Shown here: positions 1,426 to 63,840 of the stretch, piece after piece
How the letters are laid out: every line of letters starts with the position of its first letter
How positions within the stretch are numbered: position 1 is the first letter of the stretch
Assembly: GCF_030867095.1 (NCBI RefSeq)
Contig: NC_081828.1
Location: forward strand, 218,209,978-218,273,977
DNA length: 64,000 nucleotides
Source: Alligator mississippiensis
Lineage: Eukaryota > Chordata > Crocodylia > Alligatoridae
Direction: 5' to 3'
The notes under the pieces: generated by a model
What the model was told of the DNA's origin: nothing
Databases searched by the model: none
What the model saw: the letters and a program-made list of their open reading frames with translations, nothing else
Made by a program: the position numbers and the translations under genes

Positions 1426-3560
1426 CCTCATGCTGTCGGGAACGCCAGACAGACTCCTCTTGGGACCTTCTCACGGCACCTCGAGGGGGGCCAAGGATGC
1501 CGCTCTGTCCCTTTGCTGTGTGTGCGTGTTATCTGCTGGGGTGAAGAAAGGCCAGACGTTATCCTGTATCTGGAAGGCCGGGGGAGGAAATGCAAAGCCC
1601 GAGCAGTTTGGGAATCGAAGGCAATCCTCAGCTGATTCCCATTAGCTGGGAGCTAATGGGGCTGTTCCTGTGGGGATCCATGAACCTAGAAGCTTTTGCC
1701 TGTTGGTGCTTTCTCCTGTGCATCAGTGAGCACCAGCCCTCCGGTGTGGTAGAAGCATCCTTTCAAGCATGCCGATGCACATGGGCTATCGGGAGTGGAC
1801 CTGAGGAAATGACCACAGGGAGATTTTGTCTTTGCCCCCAGTGGGAGTCACTTCTGCATGAGCACAGAGGGCAGCTCACCTGCCGGCTCACGGGAGCATC
1901 TTTTTCTGGAGTCCTTATGCTTCCCTTTGCTCAGCCCTTCCCTGTGGGCACCCGGGATAACTCCTGGGCCTGGTAGCAGGACGTCCTGATCAGAGGAGGG
2001 AGCATGACACGATAATCCCAGAGCTGTATCAAGGTCTTGTTGCAACAGGTGCGGTATGAAGCACTGCCAGCCCCAGGCACTGCTGAGCAGGGACCAGCAC
2101 AGGGAGGATACGGTAGGTCCTAATCCTCCCGAAGAGAACGTGGTCTTTCGACACAGCCCTCTGCAGTCAGTACAGATCCTAGTCTACCTGCCAGGTGTCT
2201 GAGCGTGATCCTATCCCACCCTGCTCGAGTTCCTTGAAAGCCATAAACAGCGGATGAGTTGTTCTCCTCGCTGCTCCTTGTAACTTAGCCTCGTGGCTCA
2301 GATTACAGCGTGTTACAAAAATGGATGCATTAACGTGTTTTCAAGGACTTGAGCAGGGTGGAATAGGACCCGACTTGGGTTCCTAAGCCCACAGGCGAAC
2401 AGCTGGCCTGGTATTTCCCAAACCGGGTGCTGGATTTAGGAGCTGCTGGAATTGGGTTGGAAACTTCGTAATGTTTGACGCTCCGGTAAAAATATTTCAG
2501 AGGGATATTAACTGTTTCTGCTTGTTCTCAGCGTCCCCCTCCCATCTTATACCAGCGCGGCAACTCAGCCAGCCCAAATCGGTTCCCCTGCTGCAGCAGC
2601 AGTCCAGCACCCCAGGCCTCTGACCCTGCCCTCCTGTTTGCGGTCTCAGACACAGCAGGCTGTGTGTCCCTTTGGCGGACGTGATGCATTTGATGTCATC
2701 TCAGTTTGGAAAGGCTAAAGATAGGGACAAGGGCACAAAACGGAACAGACTTAGCCTGGAGTCCGGGGACCCCGCAGCTGCCAGCAAGTGAGTGAAAACT
2801 GCCCTTACAGCAGCGTTTCGTGTTTCTCCTTCAGATGACCCTCAGCCATCTGTCCGGCAGAGCCACGAACCAGACACCCCTACAATAGTCTCCAGGTGAA
2901 AGAGTTGGCTGCTGGTGCGAGTAGCACTTGGCAGCCTCACGATACCCCTTGCTGGGCTCTGGCCATCCTCCCAGTCTCCGCGAACACTTGATACCTCGAA
3001 TGACTGGCAGACAGAAGTGAGATAATAGTGACAGGAAAATGGAAGTGCATTCAGCCCCTGGCCTGTGGGGCTTGGCGATCGCACGGAGCCCTGGCATGGG
3101 GCTTGGCAGGGAATGCAGCCACTGGCATGGGCAAAAGGTGGGGGAGTTGCAAGGTGGCCCTGAAATGGAAGAGGATGGGAGGGAGGTGCAGGGGAAGCCC
3201 TGGATCGAGGGGGGTGGAGGAGCTCCTGGTGGGCTCAGCAAGCTCGGCTGGCAGGACTTGGCTCTGGCATGTGGGAGCCTCTGGCCCAGGCCCCAGCAGA
3301 CAGCACCGAAGGAGAAAGGGGCTGAGCTGTGCAGGAGCACTGCAAGGATGACAAGACGCGGTATCCTAGCATCCACCTTGCCACAGCCTGAAGGAGACCC
3401 CTGCCCAGGAACCATCCCCATCAGAGCACCACATAGTAAGCTCTTAGGGCAGGGGCTATCCTTTTGGTCTGAGTCTGGTGTATGACTGGGGCTCCAGGAC
3501 TTCCCATGGTGCATGCCATCATCATCATCATGAAGAAGGCTGTTCAGAGCTCTTCTGCAG
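1426..3560. other. No gene recognised
   Basis: Only short open frames on both strands, with no conserved motif and no convincing exon with paired splice sites. Frames at 2831-3514 (minus) and 3039-3485 (plus) overlap in GC-rich DNA and lack any recognisable domain. Confidence 0.5.
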
Positions 3561-3735
3561 GACCGTGACTTAGAAGCCTTGTGCTTTACTCCTGGTTTTG
3601 CCGCTGATCTACTGAATGGATTTGGGAAAGTCCCTTGACAGCTGGTGCCTCTGTTACCCCACGGGGAAACAGCAATGGGGCCCTCACCTGGGATCTGCCA
3701 CTGAGAAGCACTAGGTAAGAGCTGAGGCTAAGGTC
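3561..3735 (+). repeat. Old MIR / CORE-SINE fragment
   Basis: The order of short blocks follows the MIR consensus: a GGTTTTGCCGCTGATCTACTG-type block, TTTGGGAAAGTCCCTTGACA in place of the consensus TTGGGCAAGTCACTT, then GTGCCTCTGTTACCCC and AGCACTAGGTAAG. Divergence is high, as expected of an ancient SINE. Confidence 0.55.
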
Positions 3736-13039: not shown

Positions 13040-14330
13040 GCGGTCTAGATTTCATAGACATTAGGGCTGGAAGGGAGCTCGTAAGGTCATCAGGACCAGC
13101 CCCCTGCCCCAAGGGGCAGGAAGTCAGCTGGGGTTAAAGGATCCCAGCAAGATAAGCATCCAAATGTGTCTTAAAAGTGCCCAGAGCAGGTGCTTGCACC
13201 TCCTCTGGGGAGTCTGTTCCAGACCTTGGGGGCTCAGACAGTAAAGAAGTTTTTCCTTACGTCCAACCTAAAATGGTCTTGGAGGAGTTTGTGACCATTC
13301 GACCTTGTCATCCCCTGGGGCGCTCTGGTGAACAGGCGTTCCCCCAGATCCCGATGCACACCCCTTATATACTTATAGGCTGCCACTAAGTCATGCCTGA
13401 GCCTGCACTTCTCCAGGCTGAAGAGTCCCATGGCTCTCAGCTTCTCATCATAAGAGTTCGGGGTCGGACTCGATGATCTATTGAGGTCCCTTCCGACCCT
13501 AACATCTAATATCTATGAATCATAAGGCCTAGTCTCCTGCCTTCTGATCATGTGCGTGGCTCTCCTTTGCACTCTGTCAAGCTTCATCATGTCCTTCCTG
13601 AATAGTGGAGCCCAGAACTGGACGTAGTACTCCAGCTGTGGCCTCACCAAGGCCGAGCACAGCGGGAGGATGACATCCTGGGTCTTGCTTGAGATGCATC
13701 AGTAGATGCAAGCCAGAGTTTTGTTCACTTTGCCAGGTGCGGCATCGCATTGGTGGCTCTTGTTCATTTTGTGGTCAGCCTTGACCCCCAAGTCTCTTTC
13801 GGTTGTTGTGCTAGCGAGTGTAGCATTGCTGAGCCTATAAGCGTGATGTGGGTTTTTATTCCCGAGGTGGAGCACTTTGCATTTCTCTATATTGAATGCC
13901 ATCAGGTTTTCATCTGCCCACCTTGCAAGCCTGTTGAGGTCAGCCTGGATCACCAGCCCTTCCTCAAGTGTGGACACTCTTCCCTGAAGTTTGGTGTCAT
14001 CACTGAACTTGGCCAGTTTGCTTCTGACACCGGTGTCCAGGTCGTTTATGAAGACATTAAAGAGTACAGGTCCGTGAACGGAGCATTGGGGGATGCCACT
14101 GGTCACCGAGTGCCACGTTGATTCGGTTCCATCGACTACCGCTCTCTGGGTCCGACCTCGGGGCCAGTTCCCCAGCCATCGGACTTTGGAGTAGTCGAGG
14201 CTGCAGTTGCCCAATTTTTCCATGAGGACATCATGGGACACCAGGTCAAAGGCTTTTGTAAAGTCCAAATAAATGGTAATAACTTCTTTCTTTTTGTCCA
14301 GGTGATACATCACCTGGTCATAGAAGGAAC
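13040..14330 (-). mobile_element. CR1 LINE, 5'-truncated, with a long reverse-transcriptase frame
   Basis: The minus-strand frame 14313-13699 (204 codons) reads YLDFTKAFDLVSHDVLMEKL, GPVLFNVFINDLD and FSDDTKL, the CR1 reverse-transcriptase core, followed by WADENLMAFNIEKCKVLHLG. The catalytic YADD-type motif appears as FSDD. Downstream toward 13040 come the C-terminal part and the reverse complement of the CR1 tail (GGGCTGGAAGGGAGCTC at 13067). A shorter plus-strand CR1 tail is inserted in it at 13455-13518. Confidence 0.92.
13455..13518 (+). mobile_element. 64-bp CR1 tail nested inside the minus-strand CR1
   Basis: The plus-strand CR1 end (GTCGGACTCGATGATCTATT, then ATCTAATATCTATGA) interrupts the minus-strand CR1. 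It is flanked on both sides by ATCATAAG (13447-13454 and 13519-13526), a clean 8-bp target-site duplication. Confidence 0.85.
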
Positions 14331-14404
14331 TGAGTCTAGTTCAGGACTTAATTAGAAAGTGTATAACCATGTCTAATGTGACTCCTTCTTGCTGTGATTT
14401 AAGC

Positions 14405-15120: not shown

Positions 15121-18100
15121 ATGGATCAGAGGCAGAATCACTCAAGAGGATTATCTGACTCCCCTGAAGGTAGGCAGGGGTGGGTTGGGTGGCTGCTTCA
15201 TAACCGTTCAGCAGAGCGGGGGACCACTAAGCTGATTCAAACCCAGGGCATACCTCTGGCATCGCTCCGACCCCCAGCTGGGAAAGGATGGGGATCAAAT
15301 GGGTGAAAAGTGGATCTCATGGTGGGGAGCTTCTCCAGGCTGTCTGCATTTGGCGTGGCTCCCAGCTCTGCAGGGCTTCTGGAGAGCTGTGCCTATGCCG
15401 GACGCACCGGGGGTGTGCGATGGGACTGGGGGGAGTAGTGCGTGTGGAAACAAATCAGCACCCTAGGGTGCTAGGGGCTGGGTGCTGAGTGTGCTGCAGC
15501 TGTGCCCTTCCAGAGCAGCCTCTCTCCTGCCTGGCACCCTAGTACCCCTGGGTGCAAGCACTCCTGGCAGCACCTGCTCAGCCCGGACAGGTGGCATTTG
15601 TCCCTCCATGTGGGGCAGGTGGGCACGGGACCTGGGCAGTGATCAGCTCCTGCTGTTTTAGCTGGGGCTCCCTTCCGTTTCCTTTGGGGTAATCCTGTGT
15701 CTTGGGGTACGGGTGCAGCTGTGAATGAGGGGGAAGGGACTGAGCCAAAGGCTCCATCCACTTTAAGTGCCTGCTTCAGGCTCTTGCAGGCACGAGGTCC
15801 CTGAGCGGAGGACCTTGCCCTAAAGGGTATTCCCTCCAGCATTTGTGCCCCTTTGGGGAAGACCCCAGGGCCTACTGCCAGGGGAGGGTGCCCACTTCTG
15901 CTCCTAGCATGCTGTGACCTTGGAGGATCCCTGCAGGCACGTTGTCCTACAGAGGCCCCCTTCCAGGGAGGGCAACGAGCAGGCACACCTAAGCCTTTTC
16001 CTCCCTCAGGTGTGTCTGGGCTCTGCTCCCCTCCTCTCCCACTCTCAGTCCTATTTAATACACCCAGAAACAGAGTGCTGTCTTTTTGCAGACAGAGGAG
16101 AAGAGGTGCCTGCCAGTGGAGAGGGAGGACCCCCGGGCAGCAGCGTTTTCTGGAGGGGAAGCCCACCGCCTGAGAGGAGCCCAGAGTGCCCGTGCAGGTA
16201 GGAAGCTGAGATGGCCCCGCTGTGCGGGTACAGGACAGTCCCCTGGCTGCCAGACCTCAGTGCCTGCTGCAGCTTGTCCTCCCTCCAGCCCCAAGTAGAG
16301 CTTTCTCCTGAGCTCTGCTCAGGCTTCAGATCCAGGTACTTCAGCTCCACCCTCAGCAGCTAAAATCAGAGCTGAGACACCAACACAGCTGGTTTTGGGG
16401 GGGAACCTCAGGATTTGGAAGGTGTCAGAGGTTTGTGGGGGGGTCTATGCACCATGCAGAGGTTGATGATGGGCTGTCAGAGAGGAGGGATGGTCTGCAC
16501 CCTTTCTCTCTCCCTTGCACATTCAGGCACTGTTCCTGGAAAGCTGTTCTGTCCACAGCCCAGCAAGATACGGGGTCTGAGCCTGACCCCTGCAAGCAAG
16601 GTCATGGGGTCCTTCATCCCAGGCCCTAGCATGCAGAGGCAGTAGGGCCTGGGTGATGTCCAAGGCAGCAGCCATATTTTCCACAGCTCCGATCAAGAAG
16701 TGCTGATTGGAGTCCCAGGCTGCATGCATGGGCGAGGGTGGTGGGGGAAGCAAGCAGAACTGGCCGTGCTGGAGACAGCCAGGGTCTCCTTCCTGTGTGC
16801 AGACAGAGATCACATCTGGAGGGCTTCAGATGCCTCAGAAGGGATGTCCGTGCCCTCTGAAGTGCTCCTGAATGGGGTCCAAAACGAACCCCGGAGAAAA
16901 GAGCTCCTTTCTGGAAGCAACAAAATGATTTCTGTTCCTTGTGCATATTCTGCAGAGCATGCAGGAGGGCTCAGTCCTCCAGCTTCCTACAGTGCTCTGC
17001 TCTCCCCCTTTCCCTGCCCTGCAACAGAGGGAGCGGGGAGAATGGGGCTGACTGCCAGCGAGCGCTCTCCTGCATGCTCTCCCTCCCTTTACTGAGTGTG
17101 TAAGGCTCTTGTGCCCGCACAGCAGCTGTCCGTGCCACTTGTGGCCCCCGGGCTGCAGGCGGGATACCTCTGCTTTCGAGTACTCAGGAGCATGGGGCAG
17201 TCACACTTCCCTGCCCTGGTTCCCAAGGTGAAGCCGCTGGGTATGAATGGCACCTGTGCTGGGTTCCCCCACCTTCTTGCACAGGTGCTTGCTGCATGCA
17301 TGGCCAGGACACAATGGCCAGCAGGTCCCCCCAGCCCCGGGCTTGCCCGTCCTGCTGCTCATGGGTGTAGGGCAGAGTGACTTTTCCTGGCACTGGCAAA
17401 GCCTTGTGTAGGCAAGACAGCACACTCTCTGCAGGTCCTGTGGGTGTCCTGCTCGCCCGGGGTTTCAAGGCCTTGTCTTTAGTCCTGCCTGCAAAATATA
17501 TTGGTGACACAGGGTGATCAGTCCATCCCAGCCCTATCGGAGTACCCTGGCAGGGTCTGGAGAGGGGACCCTGGTGTACAGGTCACCTAGCAGAACCCAT
17601 CTCAAGAGACCTCCTTAATCCTCCCTGCTCTAGCGTGGTCTCCTTCACCTGCTACCGCCAGCCTGTGGTCATGGTCAGGGGGACCCCTCACCCCATATAC
17701 AGCTGATGTCCCTCCCCCGTCCTTTCACTGCCCAACAGAGACAATGGCATTTTGTTTTACTCCCATGTTAAAAACGTGGCTGCATTTGAACCCAAGCCCT
17801 TTGAGCTGCCCTGCAAAGGCAACGCCAGCAAGGCCCTGCGGGTTCTCAAGCGCTCTTGTCCCCGTTCCCAGCAGGCAGACGTAGGATGGCCTCTGCTTTC
17901 CAGGCCCGCATGTTGCAGGTTGCACAATGCCAGCCCCAGCCCTGGCTGGGGGCTGTTTTCTGCCCATCATCTGCATCCAGGCTGCCAGGGTCACTGCCAA
18001 AGCAGCCTCACATCTGCATCCTGCTGGAAAGCCAGCTGCTAGGGAGAGGAGCTGCTGTCCTTATGCCCTCCCACCCTTCAAATACCCTCTCTTCCTGCAG

Positions 18101-18746
18101 GTCTCGCCCTCTCCCTCATCTGGAGGAGGGCAAAGGGCCCTTCACGTGCCAGGGCTGTGGCAAGGGCTTCCAGCATCAAGTCACGCTCAAGATCCACCAG
18201 CGCACGCACACAGGGGAGAGGCCCTACTCGTGCGGTCAGTGCGGGGAGCACTTCTGCTACCAGCAGCATCACAAGGTGCACGTGCAGGTGCACCAGGGCT
18301 GGATGGTCTATGCCTGCAGCAAGGGCTTCACCATGGAGGGCGACCTCACGCGCCACTGGCGCACACGCACCGGTGAACGCCACTACCCCTGCCCCGACTG
18401 CGGCAAGCGCTTCATCTCCAGCTCCAAGGTGTGGGAACACCAGCACAGCCGCACTGGCAAGCGCCTCTACCCCTGTGCCATCTGCAGCAAGGCCTTCATG
18501 CACCAAAAGCCCCTCACTGTGCACCAGCACAAGCATCATGCCCCTGAGCTGGTGCAAGAGCCTGTGTGGGCCCAGCCCTGCTCCACCAGCCCAACACGGA
18601 GGCCAGTGCAGCCCCGAGCTGCCAGTGCGGGACTGGCCACAAGACTCAGAAGCCCCCAGGGAGGCAGCACTGGAAAGCAGCCACATCCATGTGCTCAGCG
18701 CAGCTCGGGCATCACGACCATGGTTAGGAGAACCAGCCAGAGCTGA
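15121..18746 (+). CDS. C2H2 zinc-finger protein (five-finger array, two fingers degenerate)
   Basis: Likely nuclear DNA-binding protein. The terminal exon starts at 18101 after TCTTCCTGCAG and runs to the stop at 18744-18746. It encodes five tandem fingers. Finger 1 (CQGCGKGFQHQVTLKIHQRTH), finger 2 (CGQCGEHFCYQQ, ending HVQVH) and finger 5 (CAICSKAFMHQK, ending HQHKH) keep C-X2-C-X12-H-X3-H. Finger 3 lacks its first cysteine and ends HWRTR, and finger 4 ends HQHSR, so both have lost zinc ligands. Linkers are TGERPY and close variants. A 69-residue tail without fingers follows. Two upstream exons fit in phase: 15121-15169 (ATG in a CCATGG context, starting MDQRQNHSRGLSDSPE, donor GTAGGC) and 16092-16197 (starting DRGEEVPASGEGG, donor GTAGGA). 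Splicing these to 18101 keeps the frame open (phases 1, 2, then continuous), giving roughly 267 residues. No KRAB or SCAN box was found, and no AATAAA downstream. The terminal exon is firm and the two upstream exons are inference. Two lost fingers suggest relaxed constraint or an early pseudogene. Confidence 0.65.
16200..18090. other. Intronic or unassigned DNA before the finger exon
   Basis: No repeat family recognised. A minor frame at 17752-18042 starts after an acceptor-like CCAACAG but has no domain. Confidence 0.35.
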
Positions 18747-30556: not shown

Positions 30557-33500
30557 CTAGCTGTTGGTCAGGAAGAGCCGTCTGTGTTTGGAGGACGACC
30601 CGCGTGGCCGGCCCCGACGCCGGCCCCTGCCCCGGCCGCCGAAGGGGCTCCGGCCAGCCACGGAGGGCTCCCCCCAGGGGGCATTGCCTGCGGTGGGCAG
30701 GGGGAAGCCGCCCTCCGGCTTGGGCGGTTCCAGCAGCGGGTCGACAGCCGGGCCGGCCTCGGCGGGGGGGGCCTGGCTCTGGCGCGCGCTGGCCCGCTCC
30801 TGCCGCAGGTAGCGCAGCTCGTCGCGGATGTCCGTCAGGACGCCGAGCAGGCGGAACTGGAGCTCGCGGTCGCGGGCCCGCTCCTCGCGCTGCGTGGCAC
30901 GCTCCTCCTGCCACATGGCGAGCTCCTGGTGGTACAGCTGGTCCCACTGCTCCTCCAGGTCGAGCAGGCGGTGGATGTTAGTCCTCCAGCTCTCCCGGCG
31001 GCCGTCCCGCAGGCGGGAGCAGCCCAGCCCCCGTGGAGGCGCCGGGGCGGGGGTCGGGTCGCCCTGGGGCGAGGCGGACGAGGGCAGGGACTCCTCGGTG
31101 AGGGCGCTGTGCAGAGGGGAGCGGGCCGGGTGCTCCTCCTCCGGCTTCTCCCAGGCGGGCCCCATCAGTACCCTGGGCAAAGCGCCCATCTCGGTGCCCG
31201 GCCCGACGCCCTCCTCCTCCTCGGGCTGGGAGGAATCGAGCACCCGGCCCAGGGAGGGGATGTCAGAGACGCCCTCGTGGCCCCAGTCCGAGTGACCATC
31301 CACGTGGTTGAGCGCGTCCTCCGGCAGGGAGGTCACGGAGCCCTGCGAGTTGCACCGGCGGATGAGCATGGCCTGCCGCGATGCCTTCAGGTCTTCCTCC
31401 GCCGCGAGCTGGGGCTCCGGGCCGGGCGGCAGCGCCATGGCCCCGCCATGTGCTCCGTCCATCTCCCGGCCTTCCCGCTCTTCCTCTTCCGACATGGAGG
31501 CGTAGGAAACGAGGGACTCGTTGCGCAGGGACGGCGACATGGCTGACATCTCTGGGGTCCGCAGCTCCGGTCCCGACTCGGCTGGAACAGAACAGAGGCT
31601 GAGTCCCTGCTTCGAGGCTTTCGGTGCCGCTGGCTGAGCTCCCAACCCCTCTGCCTGCCCCCTCCCCTGGCTCTGGGCTGGACCCCAAAGAGCATCGTAC
31701 TGCCCCACTGGACCGGCACCATCTCGACCAGGATCCAGACGCTTCTGGAGCAACACAGCAGTAGGTAGAGGCAGGAGGCCTCCCCGCCATTGGCATCTCC
31801 TCCTCAGCCCCACAGCTCCCGAGGCTGGGGTCCCTGGTTTACATCCCTCCCCTTTATCATCCAGAGACAACTCAGGATGTTTGGGTTTAGACGCATGCAC
31901 TTCCAGCCTGCCCAGGCTCTGGGCTTCAGCAGCCTCCCACGGCAGCAAGCTCCTCCGGCAGTGGCACGTGGGTCCTTTGATCCGCTGGACAACGGCTGTC
32001 TTTTCGTTTCCTCCAACGCCCCCTTGTCGTGAGGTCACCCGGGGAGATGGAAGGAGAGTGAGCACCAAACTTCCCCTGGGATCGGAGGGAGAGAGGGCCC
32101 AACCAAAATCCTGCCCGGGCGCAGAAGACACGCACGCCGGAAGACGAGTCAGCCAGAGCTCGGCGCTCTGATCGCAGACCCTTGCCCCCACGTAAGCAGC
32201 GGGCAGCTTGGAGCCAAGGGGTACGTCTTCTCTCGACCTTGGCCCTAATGCATTCTTGGTGGGATCTCCCTGGGGCAGGGGAACAGCAGGGCCGGTGCCC
32301 TCAGGGCCGCACCAATTCCCCAGGTCTAATTCCCCGCCGGGTAGCGGCAATGCCCTCCGCTGCCGCATCTCTAGAGAGCATGCTGCACAGAAAAGCTGAT
32401 CCATCACCACCCTCTCTGTGCAGGCGCTCCGCTCTCTAGATATGCTGCCCATTGCTCGGAGGTCGCATCCCAGACAGCCCAATTAGCCATCACTTACCTG
32501 AGCTGCTCTGCCCTTCGCCGCGGCTGTATTCACAGATCACAGACGGGTCTGGGCTCTGGACCGCGAGCCGGGGCACGGCAGAGCCCTCCATGTCCGGCAG
32601 AGAGGACGGCTGCCCGTTGGTGTCTATATAGATGCTGGGGTGGCCGACTCCGGGCTGGAGGGACATGATCGAGTGCTTGGTCGCACCGGGGAAAAACAAG
32701 TCTGTGGAGCAAAGACAAAAGGACCTCAGAGGCCAATACTTTATCGAAGGCTGTTCCCGTGAGAGGCAGCGGGCCCGGATCCCTCTATGGGAACATCTGG
32801 GGACGAGACTGGCGCAGACATGACAATCATGCTGCCAAGCTACCCGTCTTGCCAGACCTGAAGTTTCTCTCTAGGCTTTGAGTTGTCCTGCAGCACCGAG
32901 ACCGTGCATCCTGCCACTCTACAAGGATGGTCCAAAAACAGAGGAGACCTCTCTCTAGCCAGCCTAGAGTGGTACTGGGTTGCCCAGGACACTCCTCATG
33001 GCTTTTCATTTGTTTTATATAAAAAAAGGCGCCCTGAATCTCAGACTGGGGCCTCCCTAGATTTTTACAGCACAAATTCAAACAAAACAACTGCCATGTC
33101 CTGGGTCAGACCATCGGTCCATCTTGCCCAGTCGTCTGTCTGTGTCGCACGGCAGCAGAGAGCACACGCCAAAAGGGAGAGATAACAGGGTAGGACCTGG
33201 GCTTTTCCCCCTTGTTCTCCCAGTTGCAACGTCCAGCGTGTCAGATCTAGGACAGCGGTTCCCAATCTGTGGTATGGGTACCACCACTGGTACGCAGACA
33301 ACCTGTCAGTGGTACGCATTAACAGATTTATTGTAATTACTTTAGATGACAAAAATTTGCTGGTGGTACTTAAGGTTGTATTTATTGTTTTAAAATTGGT
33401 GGTGTGCAATCTGTCAGAGTTTGGGAACTGCTGATTTAGCAAGTCCTGCAAACAGCAGTCTGGCCTCTGCTCTCACTGAAAGCCCCCAATCTGAGCGGAC

Positions 33501-35454
33501 AGGAGGCCAGCAAAGAAACAGGAAAATCAGGGTTGATCTTAATTTATATTTGCACTTGCTCCCTGAAGAGAGACCCTCTGAATAAGGCCTTTTTAAAAAT
33601 TTGCTTTCAATGTATTGAGAGTACGATTCTGGTTCAGCCCGTCTGGGACAAGAGCCAGGTTCTTCTCTTGGCTGTTGGTGGAAGGATGGATGAGATGAAA
33701 TCTTAAACAAGTGTTTCTTGAACTAGACTTAAATGCATAGTAACAAAAAGCAAATAAAAAAGCGTTTTTTGTTTTTTGAATTTATCCTGTCTGTTTAAAA
33801 TCGTGCTTCTTCTCAATGAAGCCTCAGACAGGGACAGTACTTCACCTCATCCCCAACTTCAGCAGGCTTCTCAACATCATTTAAGTACAGGATCAGCTTT
33901 ATGCTTAAGTACCACTGAAATGAATGGGACTCAGGGAGACACTGAAGTGTCTGGGTCAATGGGGATGGCCTTAAGGACATGATTACAATTTGGAATAAGA
34001 TAAGTACTCTGCCAAATCAGCATCTTCACCTGATGACAAATTCAAACAAAATCCCTTAGCCGGTGTCTTCTTTTTGGATGGGGAAGAAGAATTTATCAAT
34101 CCTGCTATAATCAGAGGGTTTCTCTTCTTTACAGAGCCAATTTGAGACCCTTGCAAATACAAGAATCCCCTTAACTCAGCCCATCGGGTATAGGCTGAGG
34201 CCCTTGCAAATACAAGAATCCCCTTAACTCAGCCCATCGGGTATAGGCTGAGGCCCTTGCAAATACAAGAATCCCCTTAACTCAGCCCATCGGGTATAGG
34301 CTGAGGCCCTTGCAAATACAAGAATCCCCTTAACTCAGCCCATTGTGTATAGGCTGAGGCCCTTGCAAATACAAGAATCCCCTTAACTCAGCCCATTGTG
34401 TATAGGCTGAGGCCCTTGCAAATGCAAGAAATCCCTTAACTCAGCCCATCGGGTATAGGCCGAGGCCCTTGCAAATGCAAGGAACCCCTTAACTCAGCCC
34501 ATCGGGTAGAGATCGAGGTCTCTGACAGCTCACGGCTGCAAACAACTGCTATAGGCAGGTCAAGTGGTCTCCAGCCATGCAGCTGCTCTCACTGCAGCCA
34601 GGCCGGCCCAAGAGGATTCCCCTCTGGGTCGCCGTAAAGGAGAGAGAATTAAAAAAAGGACAGAATTCCCTTATCCCAAAACGCCCCTTAAAAAGGGATA
34701 AAATCGTCCCACCGCAGGCCGGACTGGATGACCCGTCCAGGTCTCTCCCAACCCTACTTCCCTAGGAGCCCTCCCAGCTCACAAGTCGCCTGTGGAAGGG
34801 CCTGGGCACAGTAGGTTTAGGGGGTCCTAAAATCCCTGGAGAAACACAGTTCTGCTGACGCTGGGGTCGACGGCAACGTCCCCTGGCCGGGCTGTCTGAG
34901 CGCACGATCCCGCAGTGCAGGGGCCCTGCGCCACTGCAGGGACAAGGGAAAGGGAAAGGGGCTGGACTGGAAAACCAATTTAATTTGGCGGAGACCGGGC
35001 AAGACCGCGCGGTGCATGCATGCAACCCCTCGCTCTGCTCGCTGATGCGGGACCGCCTGCGCTCACCCGGGTCCCAGATAATCTCCGGCTCCGAGTCGTG
35101 GCTGGCCTGCAGGAAGGTGGAGGCCACCATCTTCTCCAGGGGCGTGAGGCGGGGTTTGTGGAGCGGGCCGCCGGCCCGGTTCATGGGGAGATGCTTCTTG
35201 GAGGTGATCTTCTTCTTGACGTCCAGCCGCAGGTCGCGCCACTTGTGCTTGAGGTCGTCGATGGAGCGCTCCGTGTAGCCCAGGAAGTTGACGCGGCTCT
35301 GGATCTGGGTCCACAGCTGCTTCCGGCGCACGGGGTGAGCCCGCAGGGCCTCGGACCCGTACAGGGCGCTGAAGTGCCGCACCACATTCCAGACCAGCGT
35401 CTCCGTCTCGTCGTTGGAGAAGTTGGCTTTCCTCTTGCGGCCCGACGCTGGCAT
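30557..35454 (-). CDS. Myb/SANT-like DNA-binding protein with coiled coil and AT-hook-like tail (three coding exons)
   Basis: Predicted 538-residue nuclear protein, read on the minus strand as 35454-35067, 32701-32498 and 31581-30557. All junctions follow GT-AG and keep phase: donor GTGAGC after codon 129, acceptor GCTCCACAG, donor GTAAGT, acceptor CTGTTCCAG. Residues 8-84 form a Myb/SANT-like domain of the Myb_DNA-bind_5 type: RKRKANFSNDETETLVWNVV, then LWTQIQSRVN and DLKHKWRDLRLDVKKK, with three conserved tryptophan positions. Residues 198-390 are Ser/Glu/Pro-rich, with the acidic run SEEEEREGRE. Residues 395-464 (HRLLDLEEQWDQLYHQELAM and on) are charged and heptad-like, probably a coiled coil. 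Residues 513-530 are Gly/Arg-rich with RRRGRPRG, an AT-hook-like motif. This layout is known for Harbinger-transposon accessory proteins and their domesticated relatives such as NAIF1. I infer a sequence-specific chromatin or transcription factor, not NAIF1 itself. An upstream in-frame ATG at 35655 would add 67 residues if a further acceptor near 35684 is used. Confidence 0.85.
32702..33079. other. Intronic DNA of the Myb/SANT gene, nothing recognised
   Basis: No repeat family or second gene seen here. Confidence 0.4.
33080..33180 (-). mobile_element. CR1-type tail, second lineage
   Basis: CCTGGGTCAGACCATCGGTC, then CATCTTGCCCAGTCGTCTGT, is the reverse complement of the tail seen at 10680-10740 and 20350-20400. 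Confidence 0.65.
33253..33433 (+). mobile_element. 181-bp non-autonomous hAT-type element
   Basis: The left end CAGCGGTTCCCAATCTG pairs with the right end TTTGGGAACTGCTG. The flanking 8-mers ATCTAGGA and ATTTAGCA agree at 6 of 8. It lies in an intron of the Myb/SANT gene. The interior repeats GGTAC-type phrases and encodes nothing. Confidence 0.8.
33434..34143. other. AT-rich intronic DNA, nothing recognised
   Basis: A T-rich run near 33765-33780 and no coding signal. Confidence 0.4.
34144..34515. repeat. 53-bp minisatellite, about seven copies
   Basis: The unit begins GAGGCCCTTGCAAATACAAG and contains CCCCTTAACTCAGCCCATCG and GGTATAGGCT. Starts fall at 34144, 34197, 34250, 34303, 34356, 34409 and 34462. 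Inner copies are almost identical and the last two carry shared changes (AAATGCAAG). It lies in the intron between the first two coding exons of the Myb/SANT gene. Confidence 0.95.
34715..34770 (+). mobile_element. Short CR1 tail
   Basis: GGCCGGACTGGATGACCCGT, then CCAGGTCTCTCCCAACCCTA and a short CTTCCCTAGGA end. Confidence 0.65.
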
Positions 35455-35700
35455 CGCCTGCGAGGCTGGAGGGCCACAATCCAACCGCGGTCCCCGCTCC
35501 TCCGGGTCAGCTGCTGGGGGAAACAGGGGGCTGCGTGAGCCGCAGGGACCCGCGGGCCCGGCGCCCGCCGGAGCGGGCCCGGGGGCCGCCCTGCCCTGCC
35601 CTGGGGAGCTCTGGAGCGCTGCTCCAGGGCGCCGCGCCGCAGGGGGGCAGCTCATGCCCTCGCCCCGGCCGGAGAGCACCTGAGAGGGGAGAAAAGGAGA
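35455..35700 (-). promoter_or_regulatory. Alternative 3' splice sites before the start codon of the Myb/SANT gene
   Basis: Read on the minus strand, TGTTTCCCCCAGCAG offers two AG sites three bases apart (exon starts 35513 or 35510), a NAGNAG pair. A second strong acceptor (TTTTCTCCCCTCTCAG) ends near 35684. Use of the second would include an in-frame ATG at 35655 and a Pro/Ala/Gly-rich N-terminal extension. Confidence 0.5.
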
Positions 35701-35787
35701 GGCTGGAGGTGCGTCGCCTGCCCCCAGCCGGCGACAACCCCCGTCCTCCGCTCCGGACCCAGCTCTGGATCAAGGCTGCGCAGCCTG

Positions 35788-36730
35788 CCTCAGCTTCCCC
35801 ACCTGCATAATGGGGGCAAGGGCCTCAGCTTCCCCATCCCTATAATGGGGGCAAGGGCCTCAGCTTCCCCACCTGCATAATGGGGGCAATGACCTCAGCT
35901 TCCCCACCTCTATAATGGGGGCAATGACCTCAGCTTCCCCACCTCTATAATGGGGGCAATGACCTCAGCTTCCCCATCCCTATAATGGGGGCAAGGACCT
36001 CAGCTTCCCCATCCCTATAATGGAGGCAAGGACCTCAGCTTCCCTATCTCTATAATGGGGGCAAGGACCTCAGCTTCCCCATCCCTATAATGGGGGCAAG
36101 GACCTCAGCTTCCCCATCCCTATAATGGAGGCAAGGACCTCAGCTTCCCTATCTCTATAATGGGGGCAAGGACCTCAGCTTCCCCACCTCTATAACGGGG
36201 GCAATGACCTCAGCTTCCCCATCCCTATAATGGGGGCAAGGACCTCAGCTTCCCCACCTGCATAATGGGGGCAATGACCTCAGCTTCCCCATCCCTATAA
36301 TGGGGGCAAGGACCTCAGCTTCCCCATCCCTATAATGGGGGCAACGACCTCAGCTTCCCCACCTCTATAACGGGGGCAATGACCTCAGCTTCCCCATCCC
36401 TATAATGGGGCAAGGACCTCAGCTTCCCCACCTGCATAATGGGGGCAATGACCTCAGCTTCCCCACCTCTATAATGGGGGCAAGGACCTCAGCTTCCCCA
36501 TCCCTATAACGGGGGCAAGGACCTCAGCTTCCCCATCCCTATAACGGGGGCAAGGACCTCAGCTTCCCCATCCCTATAACGGAGGCAATGACCTCAGCTT
36601 CCCCACCTGCATAATGGGGGCAATGACCTCAGCTTCCCCATCCCTATAACGGAGGCAATGACCTCAGCTTCCCCACCTGCATAATGGGGGCAAGGACCTC
36701 AGCTTCCCCATCCCTATAATGGGGGCAACA
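35788..36730. repeat. 35-bp minisatellite, about 27 copies, resembling a MIR 3' segment
   Basis: The unit is CCTCAGCTTCCCCAYCYSTA followed by TAATGGGGGCAAKGA. Variants (CCTGCATAATGG, CCCTATAATGG, TATAACGG) alternate along the array. The unit matches the widespread MIR/CORE-SINE segment CCTCAGTTTCCCCATCTG plus TAAAATGGGG. The array starts just upstream of the coding exon and ends at the CpG island, so it sits in the presumed first intron of the Myb/SANT gene. Confidence 0.95.
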
Positions 36731-37244
36731 CCCCCTGGCTCGGGGGCGGGGGCAGCCGGGGGTGACAGCCCTCCCCGGGGTGCTGCCGCGGCCCCCATTC
36801 GCGCGCGTCCCCCCCCCGCGGCCCGCGGCCTGCAGCGCGGCCGGCCCGCGCAGCGCTGAAGATGGCGCGCAGGGCCGCGCCGGGCCGGGCCGGGCCGGGC
36901 CGGGCCGGGGCGGCGGCAGGGCCGGGGCGGCGGCAGGGCCGGGGCCGGGCCGTACCTGGGGCCGGGCCGGGCCGCGCGGCGCTGCGCACAAAGCCGGGCG
37001 CGGGGCGGTGCGGCGGGGCGCGGGGGGGCGCGAATGGCTCCTGCCTCGGAGGAACTCGCCTTCATTTCCTCCCCCCGCCCGCGCGCCCTCCGCCGCCGCC
37101 GCCGCCCCCCGCGCAGCCGGCTCGCTGCTGCCCTCTGCGGGCACGCGCCGCCCGGAGGCTCCGCGCACCGCGCCGCACCCCGCGCCGCACCCCGCACCGC
37201 GCCGCGCCGCCTGGCACCGACGAGTCTGCAGCTTTCTCCTGCCC
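36731..37244 (-). promoter_or_regulatory. CpG island, probable promoter and 5' exon of the Myb/SANT gene
   Basis: Very GC- and CpG-rich, with GGGCC/GGCCGG runs at 36880-36980. On the minus strand, CCCCAG followed by GTACGG at 36956/36955 is a good donor for a 5' non-coding exon that would splice to the coding exon at 35513. AAGATGGCGCG at about 36858 (plus strand) resembles a YY1 site, a motif common near start sites; its orientation would suit plus-strand transcription, so a bidirectional promoter is possible. No TATA box was seen. Confidence 0.65.
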
Positions 37245-38521
37245 CCGCTTGCACGGGCCCCGAGAGGCGATGCCCCCAATCTCACGGGCCGCGAGAGGCA
37301 ATGTCCCCAGCTGCATGGGCAGCGAGCGGCAATGCCCCCAGTCACACTGGCCACAAGAGGCAATGTCCCCAGTTGCATGGGCAGTGAGCGGCAATGCCCC
37401 CAGTCACACTGGCCACAAGAGGCAATGTCCCCAATTGCAGGGGCAGTGAGAGGGGATGCCCCCACTTGCACGGGCCACGAGAGCTGATGTCTCCAATCTC
37501 ATGGGCCGCAAGAGGCAATGTCCCCAGCTGCATGGGCAGCGAGCGGCAATGCCCCCAATCTCACGGGCCGCAAGAGGCAATGTCCCCAGCTGCATGGGCA
37601 GCGAGCGGCAATGCCCCCAGTCACACTGGCCACAAGAGGCAATGTCCCCAATTGCAGGGGCAGTGAGAGGGGATGCCCCCACTTGCACGGGCCACGAGAG
37701 CTGATGTCTCCAATCTCATGGGCCGCAAGAGGCAATGTCCCCAGCTGCATGGGCAGCGAGCGGCAATGCCCCCAATCTCACGGGCCGCAAGAGGCAATGT
37801 CCCCAGCTGCATGGGCAGCGAGCGGCAATGCCCCCAGTCACACTGGCCACAAGAGGCAATGTCCCCAATTGCAGGGGCAGTGAGAGGGGATGCCCCCACT
37901 TGCACGGGCCACGAGAGCTGATGTCTCCAATCTCATGGGCCGCAAGAGGCAATGTCCCCAGTTGCATGGGCAGCGAGCGGCAATGCCCCCAATCTCACGG
38001 GCCGCAAGAGGCAATGTCCCCAGCTGCATGGGCAGCGAGCGGCAATGCCCCCAGTCACACTGGCCACAAGAGGCAATGTCCCCAATTGCAGGGGCAGCGA
38101 GAGGGGATGCCCCCACTTGCACGGGCCACGAGAGCTGATGTCTCCAATCTCATGGGCCGCAAGAGGCAATGTCCCCAGCTGCACGGGCCCCGAGAGGCGA
38201 TGCCCCCAATCTCACGGGCCGCGAGAGGCAATGTCCCCAGCTGCACGGGCCACGAGAGGCGATGCCCCCAGTCACACTGGCCACAAGAGGCAATGTCCCC
38301 AATTGCTGGGGCAGTGAGAGGGGATGCCCCCACTTGCACGGGCCACGAGAGCTGATGTCTCCAATCTCATGGGCCGCAAGAGGCGATGTCTCCAATTGCA
38401 TGGGGATGCCCCCAATCGCATGGGCAGTGAGAGGCAATGCCCCCAATTGCACGGGGACGCCCCCACTTGCACAGGCAGTGAGAGGTGATTCCCCCACTTG
38501 CACGGCCACGAGAGGCCAGGC
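37245..38521. repeat. 31-bp minisatellite with a 217-bp (7 x 31) higher-order repeat, about 41 units
   Basis: The basic unit is like GGGCCGCGAGAGGCAATGTC plus CCCAGCTGCAT (31 bp), alternating with variants such as GGGCAGCGAGCGGCAATGCC and TGGCCACAAGAGGCAATGTC. Between about 37360 and 38230 the same order of seven variants recurs every 217 bp, four times with very few changes. Toward 38380-38521 units shorten and decay. Because 31 and 217 are not multiples of three and stops are absent, several frames on both strands stay open for 80-200 codons. I do not consider these genes. Confidence 0.95.
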
Positions 38522-41030
38522 AGGGGTTGATCCCCTAGGTGCGCTGCCTGCAAGGGGTGCCCCTGTTCCTCTGATGGGTGCACCTTGCTGCTCCCCACCC
38601 CACCCCGGACATGGAGACGGCCACCTGCATCGTACATGCAGCGCTGAGCACACGCAGGCCCGATTTTGTATGCGGGTGGGTGGGCGCCTCTTGAATGCAG
38701 AAGTGTCAACGTGCAAAAAAGAAAAGCCCCCCTCCTCTGCGTGCAGAAAGTCAATGAAAGAGCAGTGGTTGCAAAGGTGGAAGATGGAGGAAAGAGCCGT
38801 GGAGCTACAAGACCCTCTGCCCGCTCCCAGGAGGGCTGCCGATGTTAAATCTTAATAGGAAACGTGTCTTCCCCCAAGCGGCTGTCTCGTCCCATCCCGT
38901 TACGAGAGTAGCCCCCATCTCCGATGCCCAGGGAAAGGAGAGGACCGGCACCGCGGGATCAGCCCCACTCATGAGTGCCGCTGTACCGGTGCCGAACGCT
39001 GCCTGTGCCTCAAGGGGACTGAAGCGTCCTGGTCCTGGGTGCCGCAACACCGGGAAAGTTGCATTCAAGATCAGGCCGCGACGTGGGGCACAACCTGCAC
39101 TGAAAACCAGGCCTGGCAGCAAGGCTGGAGGGCGAGCAGGCCAAGGGCATGTCCCCGTCGGGCTGAGCAGGGCTGGGGAGACCTGGCTGTGCCGTGGGAT
39201 GCTGGCTGGCCACGGGCGGCAGGTGGCACCACCGGGGACGGCGGCCGCATTTTGGGGCGACTGCGGAGAGCCAGGGCTGCTCGGGGGAGTGCAGCTGAGT
39301 TCGGACCGAGGCCCCGGGATAGATCAGCCCCGGGGTGCCAGGCCCAGCAGGTTAAGGGCATGCAGCAGACGTCGGTGCTTAAAAGCCCTAGGCAGGTCGG
39401 AGGGATCCACGTTTAGTTTTGCGAGAAGAACGCATCACCCATCCATCGCCGTGGCCTCGTGACCCCCAGGAGAGGTGCCAGCATGGACTGAACTCCCTGA
39501 GCCCAGGAGATAGCCCCTGAGGTGGGAAGGAAGGGAAAGAAGTAGTATGTCTGCAAGGCCAAGCCGTGGCCTTTGGTGCAGAGGGCATGGAGGTTAGCCC
39601 GGGACAGGGGAGCTGTTGCACTCGCGGCAGGGCTGGTCCTGGCCAGCTCCCCGGCTCAGTGTCGGAGCCAAGACACAGCCACGGGAGGCACGTCCCAAAG
39701 GCGTGGTTCTGGCACCCGTTACACAAGGCGAGAAACGCCCAGCCCAGCCCCGGTCTCTGGGGTAAGCAGGGACATACCAGGCCCCAAAGCCCCAGCATCA
39801 CCCTCTACACTGCTGCATCCCCTGCACAAAATCGGCTCCCAGCCCCGCTCTCAGGCTGCCCGCGTGACCTGTCCTTCCCTACAGCCTGTCACTTGCTGCC
39901 CGGCTCCCCCCGAGCTGGGTCCAAGCTGCCCTTCTCTGCCTGTTGCCCTGCACCGTGCAGGGGCATTACCGTGCATCCCTCCCCTGAGCAAAGCGCCCTC
40001 CCACCCAGAGCAGCAGACATGGGCTCCAGGGGGGCCGTCGCTGTAGCTAAAGTCCTAATGCAAAGTCTGGGATGAGCTTCAGATTCAGCAATTCCTGACG
40101 GACGTGTTGGGCTGAGTTAATCTGTGGACCTCTGCAGCTGTTCGTGCTTGTTGCCCGTTCCTTCGGGATGGTGTTTCTGTTTGGCATTTTCTTCAGATGC
40201 TCCAGTGCGTTAAGGGAATAGCAGTGGCAATAGCCACCGGGCTCAGCGGGGACAGGCTGTGGACATGAGGCAGGGCGAAGTTGGCCTCGACTGGGAAATG
40301 AGGGCCCGTGGATGCTAGCGAGGGCTCCTTTGGTGCAGCATGTCATTTCCAGGGGTGCTGCAGCCCTGGGGAGGCTGGCCAGGCCTGGTGGGCTGCCAGC
40401 ATGTCATCCAGCGCTTCCTTGCATGGTATGAGGGGCTACAGCAGTTGCATTGGCTCCTAAAAACCCCAGGTCTGGAAGGAAGCTCCAGGGTCACCGAGTG
40501 CAGCCCCTTGCACAGCTGTTCCTGCATCGGTGCCCTCACTGCAGCCGGGAGGTTGCTGCTCGAATAAGGGATGGAGAAAACCACTGCAAGGGACCGATCC
40601 CACTCCCGCAGCGAAACCCACCCCCGGGCAAGGAAGTGCATGCGAAACAGCCAGAGTCAGGATTTGCAGATCAGGCTGAGGGCACTGATTTCAACCCCAC
40701 GTTATTTTCCAAGCAGCAAATTGATTTCCAATGAGCCCTTCGGACTGCTTATGCGACTCTGCGGGGTAGAGCTGACCCTGCCTTGTGTCCTGCGGGCGCA
40801 CACGTAGGGCAGTACATGAGAGTTAGCCAACAGTGTCCAGAACAAGATCAGAAGGATGTTTAGCTGCCTTCAGGGTCTGCCTCTCTTCTGGGCTAGTGGA
40901 CCGGGGAGGTCAAGAAATGCCTGCAGGCTGAGAAAGTGCCACAAGTGGGGTCAACAAGCTGGGGACAAGCTTGGGTGTTTTAACTGCCTGGCAAAGGGCG
41001 AAAGGGAGGCACGGGGATAAAGGGGCTGCC
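38522..41030. other. No gene recognised
   Basis: GC-rich DNA with overlapping frames on both strands (for example 39566-40075 plus and 39388-39801 minus). No domain, no paired splice signals of note. Confidence 0.4.
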
Positions 41031-46675: not shown

Positions 46676-48790
46676 GAGCCCAAGCACAGAGGTTTTGGGA
46701 TTCGGATGCTCCCAGATACCCGCATTGCATTTGGATTTCACTTGCTGCTATGTGAACAGTGATGCCCGGTGCAGGATAGTGGGAACCGTCCAGCTGCCCA
46801 CCCTGGACTGCTCCCAGCCCTGTCCCCATGGCACGCGCCCTCCTGGCAGCACGATGCTGCCTCTCAGGCTCCCCTCCCCGCCGAGCAAGCGTGTCAGGTC
46901 CCTCTTCTCCAGACAGAGCCCCCGGGGGCTGACAACCAGCCAGGAGTGCTGGCAGCATCCAGGGAACCCCTCTGCAATCCTGCGAGCACGGCCGCAGCTG
47001 CTAGGGGAAGGATGGAGAGAGCACTGGGGCCGTGAACACAGCCGCCTGGAGCTCTCTATGGGTCGTGGCATGGGCAGACTGGTCTGGGGCCGGGCACCGG
47101 GGCTGGGGAGGGCCATGGAGATGCCAAAAGCAGGCTGGTATAGGGCTTTCTGGCCAGCGTCACCTCCCTAGGAGCTCACAGGAGGAAATGAAATGCCGGT
47201 AAAAAGACTGCCTGATGCAGCTCAGACGTTGCAGGGGCAATTGGAGGAGCCCCGAGTGAGCCCCCGGTGTCGGACTTGTCCCTTGTAGATGCAGGGGAGG
47301 GGGCAGTTGTGTAGCTGCTGGCGGTGGGGGGTAACCCCTGTGAGCGGCACCAGGCTCAGGGGCTGCTCTGCGTTAATCTGGGAGTCAAATCACCCCCCTA
47401 CGGCATCCCAGCTGTCTTCTTTGCACCCCCCAGCTGCACCTTTTGTTCTGCACAGCTCAGAATTGGGCCCTTCCACCTCGCTGTGCCTCAGTTTCCCCAC
47501 TGCTGGGACGACAAGGGCACCAAGGGATGGGACGGTGTGTGATAATAGTAGCTGAGCTGAGTCGGGGTCAAGAGGGCCAGGAACTGGCCTTGTGACATCA
47601 TCACACCACCTAGTACGGTGATGTCATTGTGCGGCTATGTTACATGTTAGGTTACATGTTAGGTGTCAGACCAGAGCACGGCCTGGATTAGCACGTAGGC
47701 TGCGCTGGCTGGAGGAGCTTGGAGCAGCGCTAGCCCCGGGCAGTCCGGCCATGCCTCCGATCGGCAGTCCCTGAGCTGTATGGAGAGGCATGGGGAGAGC
47801 CTGTGTGTCAGCTCCATACCAGCTGGTGAGACTGTGCGCAAAGGGGATGTCCATCCACGATCAGCACTGCTGGGGCAGTGCTCAGGGGCCTTCAACACAG
47901 GCTGGTGGTGCAGAGATGCAAGAGAGGAGCAGAAAGACCTGCACGGCTGCAGCAGCCTGAGCAACACGGACAGCAATGCAGAGTGAGTCCCCGCGCCTTG
48001 TGCAAGCCCCTGTTCCCGGTTTGGCTGAGACCATGGATGCACATGGGGACAGAAACCCCAGACCCCAACTATCGTGGTTTCCAGCCCGGCTTCTTCTTGC
48101 TTCTCTTCTTATCTGCAACTTTCCCAGAGGTACAGTGACGAGAACAGCCTCGCTGAGCTGCGATGGCAGAGTCAAACGGGTCTCGGTTCAGCCGCTGCCA
48201 AGTTACCCAAGAGCGTAGGGCATTGCACTCACACAGGTGCTCCCTCCCCTACATGCTGTTGAATTGATGCTTTCATGAGCACAGAGAACGGTGACGGCTC
48301 AGGTTGGAGAGACTTTACCAGCCCCTGGTCCTCCGATGAAGCTCATCAGAGCAGGATACAAGCCCCCTGAGTCTGTGTTAACATGGAAGAACAGGGCTGG
48401 ATCCCCATCTCATTAGCAGGGATGTGAATCCAAAGCCAATTAACAGAGATATTCAAGGATTACAGCTCAAGGTCCAAGTCTGTCTGTAGTCAAAATATCT
48501 AGTCTGTTCCTGGCAATAACGTCACGCAGGGAAAGGACCCGACCGTCTGCAAGTCGGGGTCTGGCGCCAAGGCCTATAGCCGTTGCTGAGGGGTTGGGGT
48601 CCTCATCTGGGACTCATTTGCGAGGGCCAGATGTGGGGGAAGCTGTACTTCTCCTGTTCTTCCATGATGCATAAAGGCAGGTTATAATGGAAAGTAAGGA
48701 CTCTGTGGGGCTGCTGCCTTGGCTGCAGTCATACGCGCACGACCGTACCTACACTGTGAAAGGCTGAAACTCTGCAGAGCTGTTTTCACA
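46676..48790. other. No gene recognised; one MIR-like piece
   Basis: CTGTGCCTCAGTTTCCCCAC at 47481-47500 looks like a MIR remnant. The 214-codon frame at 46527-47171 is opposed by minus-strand frames and lacks a domain. Confidence 0.4.
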
Positions 48791-54030: not shown

Positions 54031-54195
54031 CCCCAGGAGCTGGGGGAAGGGGGGGAGAGAGCAGGGGGGAAAAGGAAAAGGAAGTTTCGAAACTGTTCGT
54101 TAAAGGTCACAATAGTGAGCAGTTCCTCTCTTGTAGTTGCGTATTGGTGCTCAGCTTTGCTTAAGGCTCTGCCTGTATAGGCTAGTAGCTTTTCC

Positions 54196-54260
54196 TTACC
54201 CTAGCCCTAACCTTAATCCTAACCCTAACCCTAATCCTAACCTTAATCCTAACCCTAAAC
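54196..54260 (+). repeat. Interstitial telomere-like tract (CCCTAA variants)
   Basis: About ten hexamers of CCCTAA and variants (CCTTAATCCTAACCCTAACC type), oriented CCCTAA on the plus strand. Confidence 0.9.

Positions 54261-54410: not shown

Positions 54411-54464
<54 letters not shown>
54411..54464. repeat. (TA)27 microsatellite
   Basis: Uninterrupted TA dinucleotides over 54 bases, about 150 bp after the telomere-like tract. Confidence 0.97.

Positions 54465-61296: not shown

Positions 61297-63840
<2,544 letters not shown>

Follow-up and report, generated by a model that had tools for sequence, protein, structure and literature searches.

A putative CpG-island promoter between two minisatellites in Alligator mississippiensis, one of them resembling the tail of a dispersed SINE

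Results

The locus is located on a large contig (C5, NC_081828.1; 220,919,336 bases) of the Alligator mississippiensis genome, some 2.65 Mb away from the contig end, in a stretch of 64,000 nucleotides referred to here as the window; coordinates are positions in the window unless a contig is indicated. TRF, splitting of the arrays into units, and base composition placed three elements in a row, a 35-bp minisatellite, a CpG island, and a 31-bp minisatellite. The 35-bp array (positions 35788 to 36728, + strand) has a period of 35 and 26.9 copies according to TRF, and was split into 27 units, one of which is 34 bp long. The 31-bp array (+ strand) starts at position 37240 and extends to approximately 38510. 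TRF detected a period of 217 at 37240 to 38404 (5.4 copies, 96% matches) in addition to a period of 62, and a degenerate tail at 38354 to 38505. Splitting identified 37 regular units, and a loose motif count over the array and its tail gave 41. Both arrays are minisatellites, consisting of head-to-tail units of about 10–100 bp over at least 0.5 kb. The preliminary description of this DNA had proposed about 27 units of 35 bp ending at 36730, about 41 units of 31 bp starting near 37245, and a 500-bp CpG island in between, and this layout was recovered. It is highly improbable that the arrays are assembly artefacts, since the assembly comprises only 195 contigs for 2.35 Gb and is therefore probably based on long reads, which would individually span arrays of 0.9 and 1.3 kb.

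The island (36730 to 37239) has a GC content of 0.85 and contains 91 CpGs, corresponding to an observed-to-expected (o/e) ratio of 0.99, versus 0.10 in the 35-bp array (7 CpGs per 942 bases), 0.45 in the 31-bp array, and 0.41 in the whole window. The GC content of more than 0.55 and CpG o/e ratio of more than 0.65 over 500 bp that define a CpG island are both exceeded. The island harbors GC boxes, one G3N1-7 quadruplex motif on the + strand, and no TATAAA motif. It also contains one YY1-like motif (AAGATGGCG at 36859, + strand), a possible sign of transcription starting on the + strand or of a bidirectional promoter. Two of the nine CpG-rich stretches called in the window flank the locus, at 34601 to 35850 and 38601 to 39450. 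Because such stretches are present on both sides, the two arrays may interrupt a single wider CpG-rich domain of nearly 5 kb, although the window as a whole is GC-rich and CpG-rich stretches abound in it.

A Myb/SANT-like domain is encoded by the minus strand (PF13873, Myb_DNA-bind_5; E 4.9e-19; 68.5 bits versus a Pfam cut-off of 21.7). Searches of PDB returned only weak matches, to plant GT-1 (E 0.016 and 0.14), the NCBIfam search gave no match above the cut-off, and there were 0 Rfam matches at the gathering score and 0 tRNAs. The domain would be carried by a coding exon at 35067 to 35679, which ends at the donor CGG/GTGAGC at 35066. Two pyrimidine-rich sites could serve as its acceptor, at 35680 (20 pyrimidines in the 20 preceding nucleotides) and at 35514, the exon thus running from about 35679 or about 35513 down to 35067. 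The in-frame reading starts with MPASGRKRKANF at 35454, the likely start codon, with an in-frame alternative at 35655. A further coding exon is probable at 32498 to 32699, with an open frame and the donor CAG/GTAAGT at 32497, its acceptor not being fixed. The last coding exon is probably located at 30557 to 31581, after the acceptor CTGTTCTGTTCCAG; it has no Pfam match. When the stretches 32699–32498 and 31581–30557 were joined at the splice signals, the frame stayed open to the final stop. A third minisatellite (34143 to 34508; 53-bp unit, 6.9 copies, 96%) is located in the predicted intron between the exon end at 35067 and position ~32699.

The best minus-strand donor within the island is CAG/GTACGG, with the G of GT at 36955. 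It would terminate an exon 1 region at 36956 to 37239 and define an intron 1 extending from 36955 to 35681 if the acceptor at 35680 is used, or longer with the acceptor at 35514. With the former acceptor, the 35-bp array would occupy 941 of the 1275 nucleotides of intron 1. The only minus-strand ATG in the exon 1 region, at 37065, leads to a stop after 37 to 45 codons when spliced to any of three acceptor positions. Exon 1 would thus either remain untranslated or contain a short upstream frame. These features together suggest a non-coding exon 1 within the island and an intron 1 mostly taken up by the 35-bp array. The role of Myb/SANT promoter ascribed to the island in the preliminary description is in keeping with the minus-strand orientation of the gene, the donor at 36955 within the island, and the acceptors at 35680 and 35514, and we consider it to be the most natural reading. 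This assignment is challenged by the fact that the coding exon is itself covered by a CpG-rich stretch (34.6 to 35.85 kb), which could be the promoter instead; the 35-bp array would then sit upstream of the start.

The 35-bp unit resembles the 3' tail of a SINE that we take to be of the MIR/CORE type. The tail motif had 494 matches in the genome with at most two mismatches, versus 0 for the reversed control. Twenty loci cut from these matches (15 exact and five with one mismatch) shared a flanking consensus that extends the tail. Seven of eight units checked contained 24 of 28 tail bases, and the remaining unit 23 of 28, versus a best value of 20 in 300 dinucleotide shuffles of the array and of 19 in 20 shuffles of the window. 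Local alignment of the unit to the SINE tail gave a score of 40, whereas none of 400 permutations scored above 24. A profile built from the 20 loci recovered array units at single-unit E values from 0.0018 upward, only four of them falling inside the inclusion threshold, and the same profile scored higher elsewhere in the window, at 3559 to 3725 (E 9.5e-10) and 47470 to 47499 (E 0.00022). The 35-bp array thus qualifies as SINE-derived in that its unit matches part of a SINE dispersed in this genome more closely than expected by chance. A terminal unit of greater length, extending into the SINE, was not found, the profile match to the first unit beginning only 2 nucleotides before that unit, and no longer SINE remnant was recognized at the ends of the array. 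The match of the 35-bp unit to the tail of this dispersed, presumably MIR/CORE-type element, antisense to the gene, is newly described here. In the parts of the literature available to us, we found no earlier report of a MIR- or CORE-SINE-derived minisatellite at this locus or of one built from MIR tails, which does not establish its absence from print.

Paired copies of the first 13 bases of the tail yielded 54 exact matches genome-wide (reversed control, 0), distributed between this array (22), contigs C15 (12), C3 (9), and C1 (5), and single occurrences (6). The 12 matches at C15:8757334-8758251 form a tandem block with a spacing of 31–32 bases within runs. A second tandem block based on the same 13-mer is present at C3:300702729-300704015, where the nine matches are spaced near multiples of 52. 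At C1:450.87-453.13 Mb, five near-identical 62-base matches, in each of which two SINE-tail 13-mers enclose GC-rich sequence, are scattered over 2.3 Mb and probably represent a duplicated family. DNA searches with 513 bases of the 35-bp array and 435 bases of the 31-bp array each matched only the array itself; such searches skip very common words and were performed with part of each array, so the absence of further copies is not proven.

The 31-bp array has a distinct organization. Units seven apart differ on average at 1.1 of 31 positions, versus 5.5 to 9.3 at every other lag between 1 and 12, and are mostly identical in the middle of the array, revealing a higher-order repeat of seven units (217 bp). 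Derivation of this array from the same SINE tail was rejected, as 50 of 400 permutations gave an equally good match. Kinship of the two arrays was also considered. The comparison revealed an 18-bp likeness with a best local score of 26. Of 1600 column permutations, 28 attained this score, as did 5 of 407 background blocks from the window, where every second block and every second 35-bp unit variant were used. A first run had given 1 of 160 permutations as good, and certain comparisons of unit variants looked stronger (two of eight equaled by 0 of 100 shuffles), although these had been picked among variants. This marginal likeness was not accepted as kinship, and the earlier portrayal of the arrays as unrelated holds as far as tested.

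Where units of the 35-bp array read CACCT instead of CATCT or CATCC, the splice-donor-like motif MAG/GTGGGG arises on the sense strand of the gene. Such a site is present once in each of 11 of the 27 units (35802 to 36676, minus strand). With an approximate donor frequency matrix, these sites scored 7.7 to 8.6, versus 8.2 and 8.6 for the predicted donors at 36955 and 35066. Sites scoring at least 7.6 numbered 58 on the minus strand of the window, 11 of them in the 0.94-kb array, and 52 on the plus strand, none of them in the array. The array contained no acceptor-like site, defined by at least 75% pyrimidines in the 20 nucleotides preceding CAG or TAG.

The preliminary description also attributed a G/C strand bias and possible unusual structures to both arrays. 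The bias was observed for the 35-bp array (GC skew of -0.23) but hardly for the 31-bp array (-0.04). Unusual structures were not supported: the G3N1-7 quadruplex motif was found on neither strand of either array, single units folded no better than shuffled sequences (z -0.75, -0.02, and -0.56), and folding was hardly better than in shuffles for 93 bases taken from the 31-bp array (z -1.16; 29 of 200 as good). A loose pattern with long loops (runs of 4 G, loops of up to 31) occurred four times on the + strand and five times on the - strand of the 35-bp array, and 0 and seven times, respectively, in the 31-bp array.

The surroundings of the locus are rich in GC (0.57 over 254 local kb versus a mean of 0.48 in the 20 SINE-centred loci elsewhere) and in arrays of at least 300 bp (eight in 254 kb versus one in 60.6 kb of SINE-centred loci). 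Two more arrays are located just left of the window, at C5:218208885-218209781 (46 bp × 19.8) and C5:218207152-218207687 (58 bp × 9.4). Random placement of eight arrays flanked an island on both sides within 250 bp in 0.55% of trials, in a post hoc comparison with unmasked arrays. Seven of the eight local arrays were within 1 kb of an island before masking (P 0.0036) and six of eight, for 3.1 expected, when arrays were masked (P 0.04), the two tests having used different island-calling settings. Omitting the two arrays studied here reduced the proportion to four of six (P 0.14), and further omitting a zinc-finger exon gave four of five (P 0.07). A general link between minisatellites and islands was therefore not supported. 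Elsewhere in the window, we observed an interstitial telomere-like repeat, (CCTAAC)n, at 54194 to 54258, with (TA)27 nearby at 54411 to 54464; open frames encoding C2H2 zinc fingers at 17805 to 18746 and 62755 to 63840 (both + strand); and a reverse-transcriptase fragment (RVT_1, E 9e-15) at 13699 to 14340 on the minus strand, presumably of a CR1-type LINE.

Discussion

Our analysis points to a CpG-island promoter of a minus-strand Myb/SANT gene accompanied by two minisatellites that arose independently, the 35-bp one from a SINE tail, with both arrays most likely devoid of a dedicated function. We regard this reading as a whole as probable. The 35-bp array would have formed from an old MIR/CORE-type SINE located in intron 1 in antisense orientation, whose conserved 3' tail was duplicated locally in tandem through slippage or unequal exchange. 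Upstream of the island, the 31-bp array would have grown from a separate seed and been homogenized recently as the 7-unit block. If array length varies, the likeliest consequence would be a modest effect in cis on promoter activity or first-intron processing, as for other promoter VNTRs.

A stronger role was envisaged in the preliminary description, in which the arrays would act as regulatory VNTRs and expression of the Myb/SANT gene would depend on their copy number. Their position next to a promoter-like island and the precedent of MAOA, which has two VNTRs near its promoter (PMC12776774), speak for this role, which the low CpG o/e ratios of the arrays, the lack of canonical quadruplex motifs, and their ordinary hairpins render rather unlikely; an effect of copy number on expression is plausible in view of such precedents. 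The arrays might alternatively be by-products of meiotic breaks at the island, in a lineage that may lack PRDM9 and in which repair expands repeats near promoters and CpG islands. PRDM9 has been reported to be absent in birds and crocodiles, and species without it to recombine at promoter-like features (PMC5519329). The proximity of six of the eight masked local arrays to an island is consistent with this origin, but the tendency weakens without the studied arrays, so the link with PRDM9-free recombination is only an idea. Our search for SSXRD returned 0 matches in the genome, which does not show the absence of PRDM9 since none of 14 control genomes was matched either. By eye, neither array displays polarity toward the island, the 31-bp array being most homogeneous in its middle and the 35-bp array least homogeneous at its island side. 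An origin in meiotic breaks accordingly appears doubtful.

The donor-like sites raise the additional possibility that the 35-bp array provides decoy or alternative 5' splice sites in intron 1, its length setting the binding of U1 snRNA or the end of exon 1. Eleven units offer sites that score like the predicted real donors on the sense strand, and the antisense orientation of the tail is that of 60% of exonized MIR sequences (PMC6822395). However, all 11 sites derive from the copying of just two unit variants and are not independent events. Their number is thus a consequence of array growth, and the array lacks an acceptor-like site. A decoy function is thus improbable, and we give very little credence to its most elaborate form, an antisense SINE tail amplified into a ladder of 11 donors downstream of the exon-1 donor, with array length acting as a dial for U1 binding or alternative exon 1 usage. 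The repeated donor-like site in the putative first intron, the use of which is unproven, would nevertheless be the one unusual feature of what is otherwise an ordinary VNTR-flanked promoter.

Returning to the preferred reading, of a promoter flanked by arrays without dedicated function, the 35-bp array is a SINE-tail-derived array of an already known kind, as exemplified by the SINE-derived satellites (sSats) of squamates, which are likewise tandem arrays built from part of a SINE (PMC10702118). The sSats are preferentially subtelomeric, and the 35-bp array likewise lies toward a contig end, at a distance of about 2.65 Mb. In comparison to Squam1-3, the 35-bp array differs by its unit of only 35 bp, the putative assignment to a MIR/CORE tail, the lack of a longer terminal SINE unit, and its restriction to one short locus, although minor sSat variants without the longer terminal unit have been noted (PMC10702118). 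The MAOA gene similarly combines a promoter VNTR with a second, more distal one (PMC12776774); here, one array is probably intronic, and length variation and an effect on expression are only candidate properties. The dodecamer repeat of the CSTB promoter is also a minisatellite at a promoter, with a 12-base unit and a known expansion disease (PMC7730309), to which nothing comparable is known for the present arrays. Human GC-rich subtelomeric minisatellites such as CEB1 (PMC3486850) resemble the alligator arrays in composition and location toward a chromosome end, the latter arrays differing by the lack of the G3N1-7 motif.

Together, these observations suggest that, within a single genome, tandem arrays have arisen on more than one occasion from the conserved tail of an ancient SINE. 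They also suggest that the first intron of a gene with a promoter island can host a SINE-tail array, in the orientation that is reported to be the more frequent one in MIR exonization. If the length of the array varies, the locus would offer a simple natural test of the effects of intron 1 VNTRs on splicing or expression.
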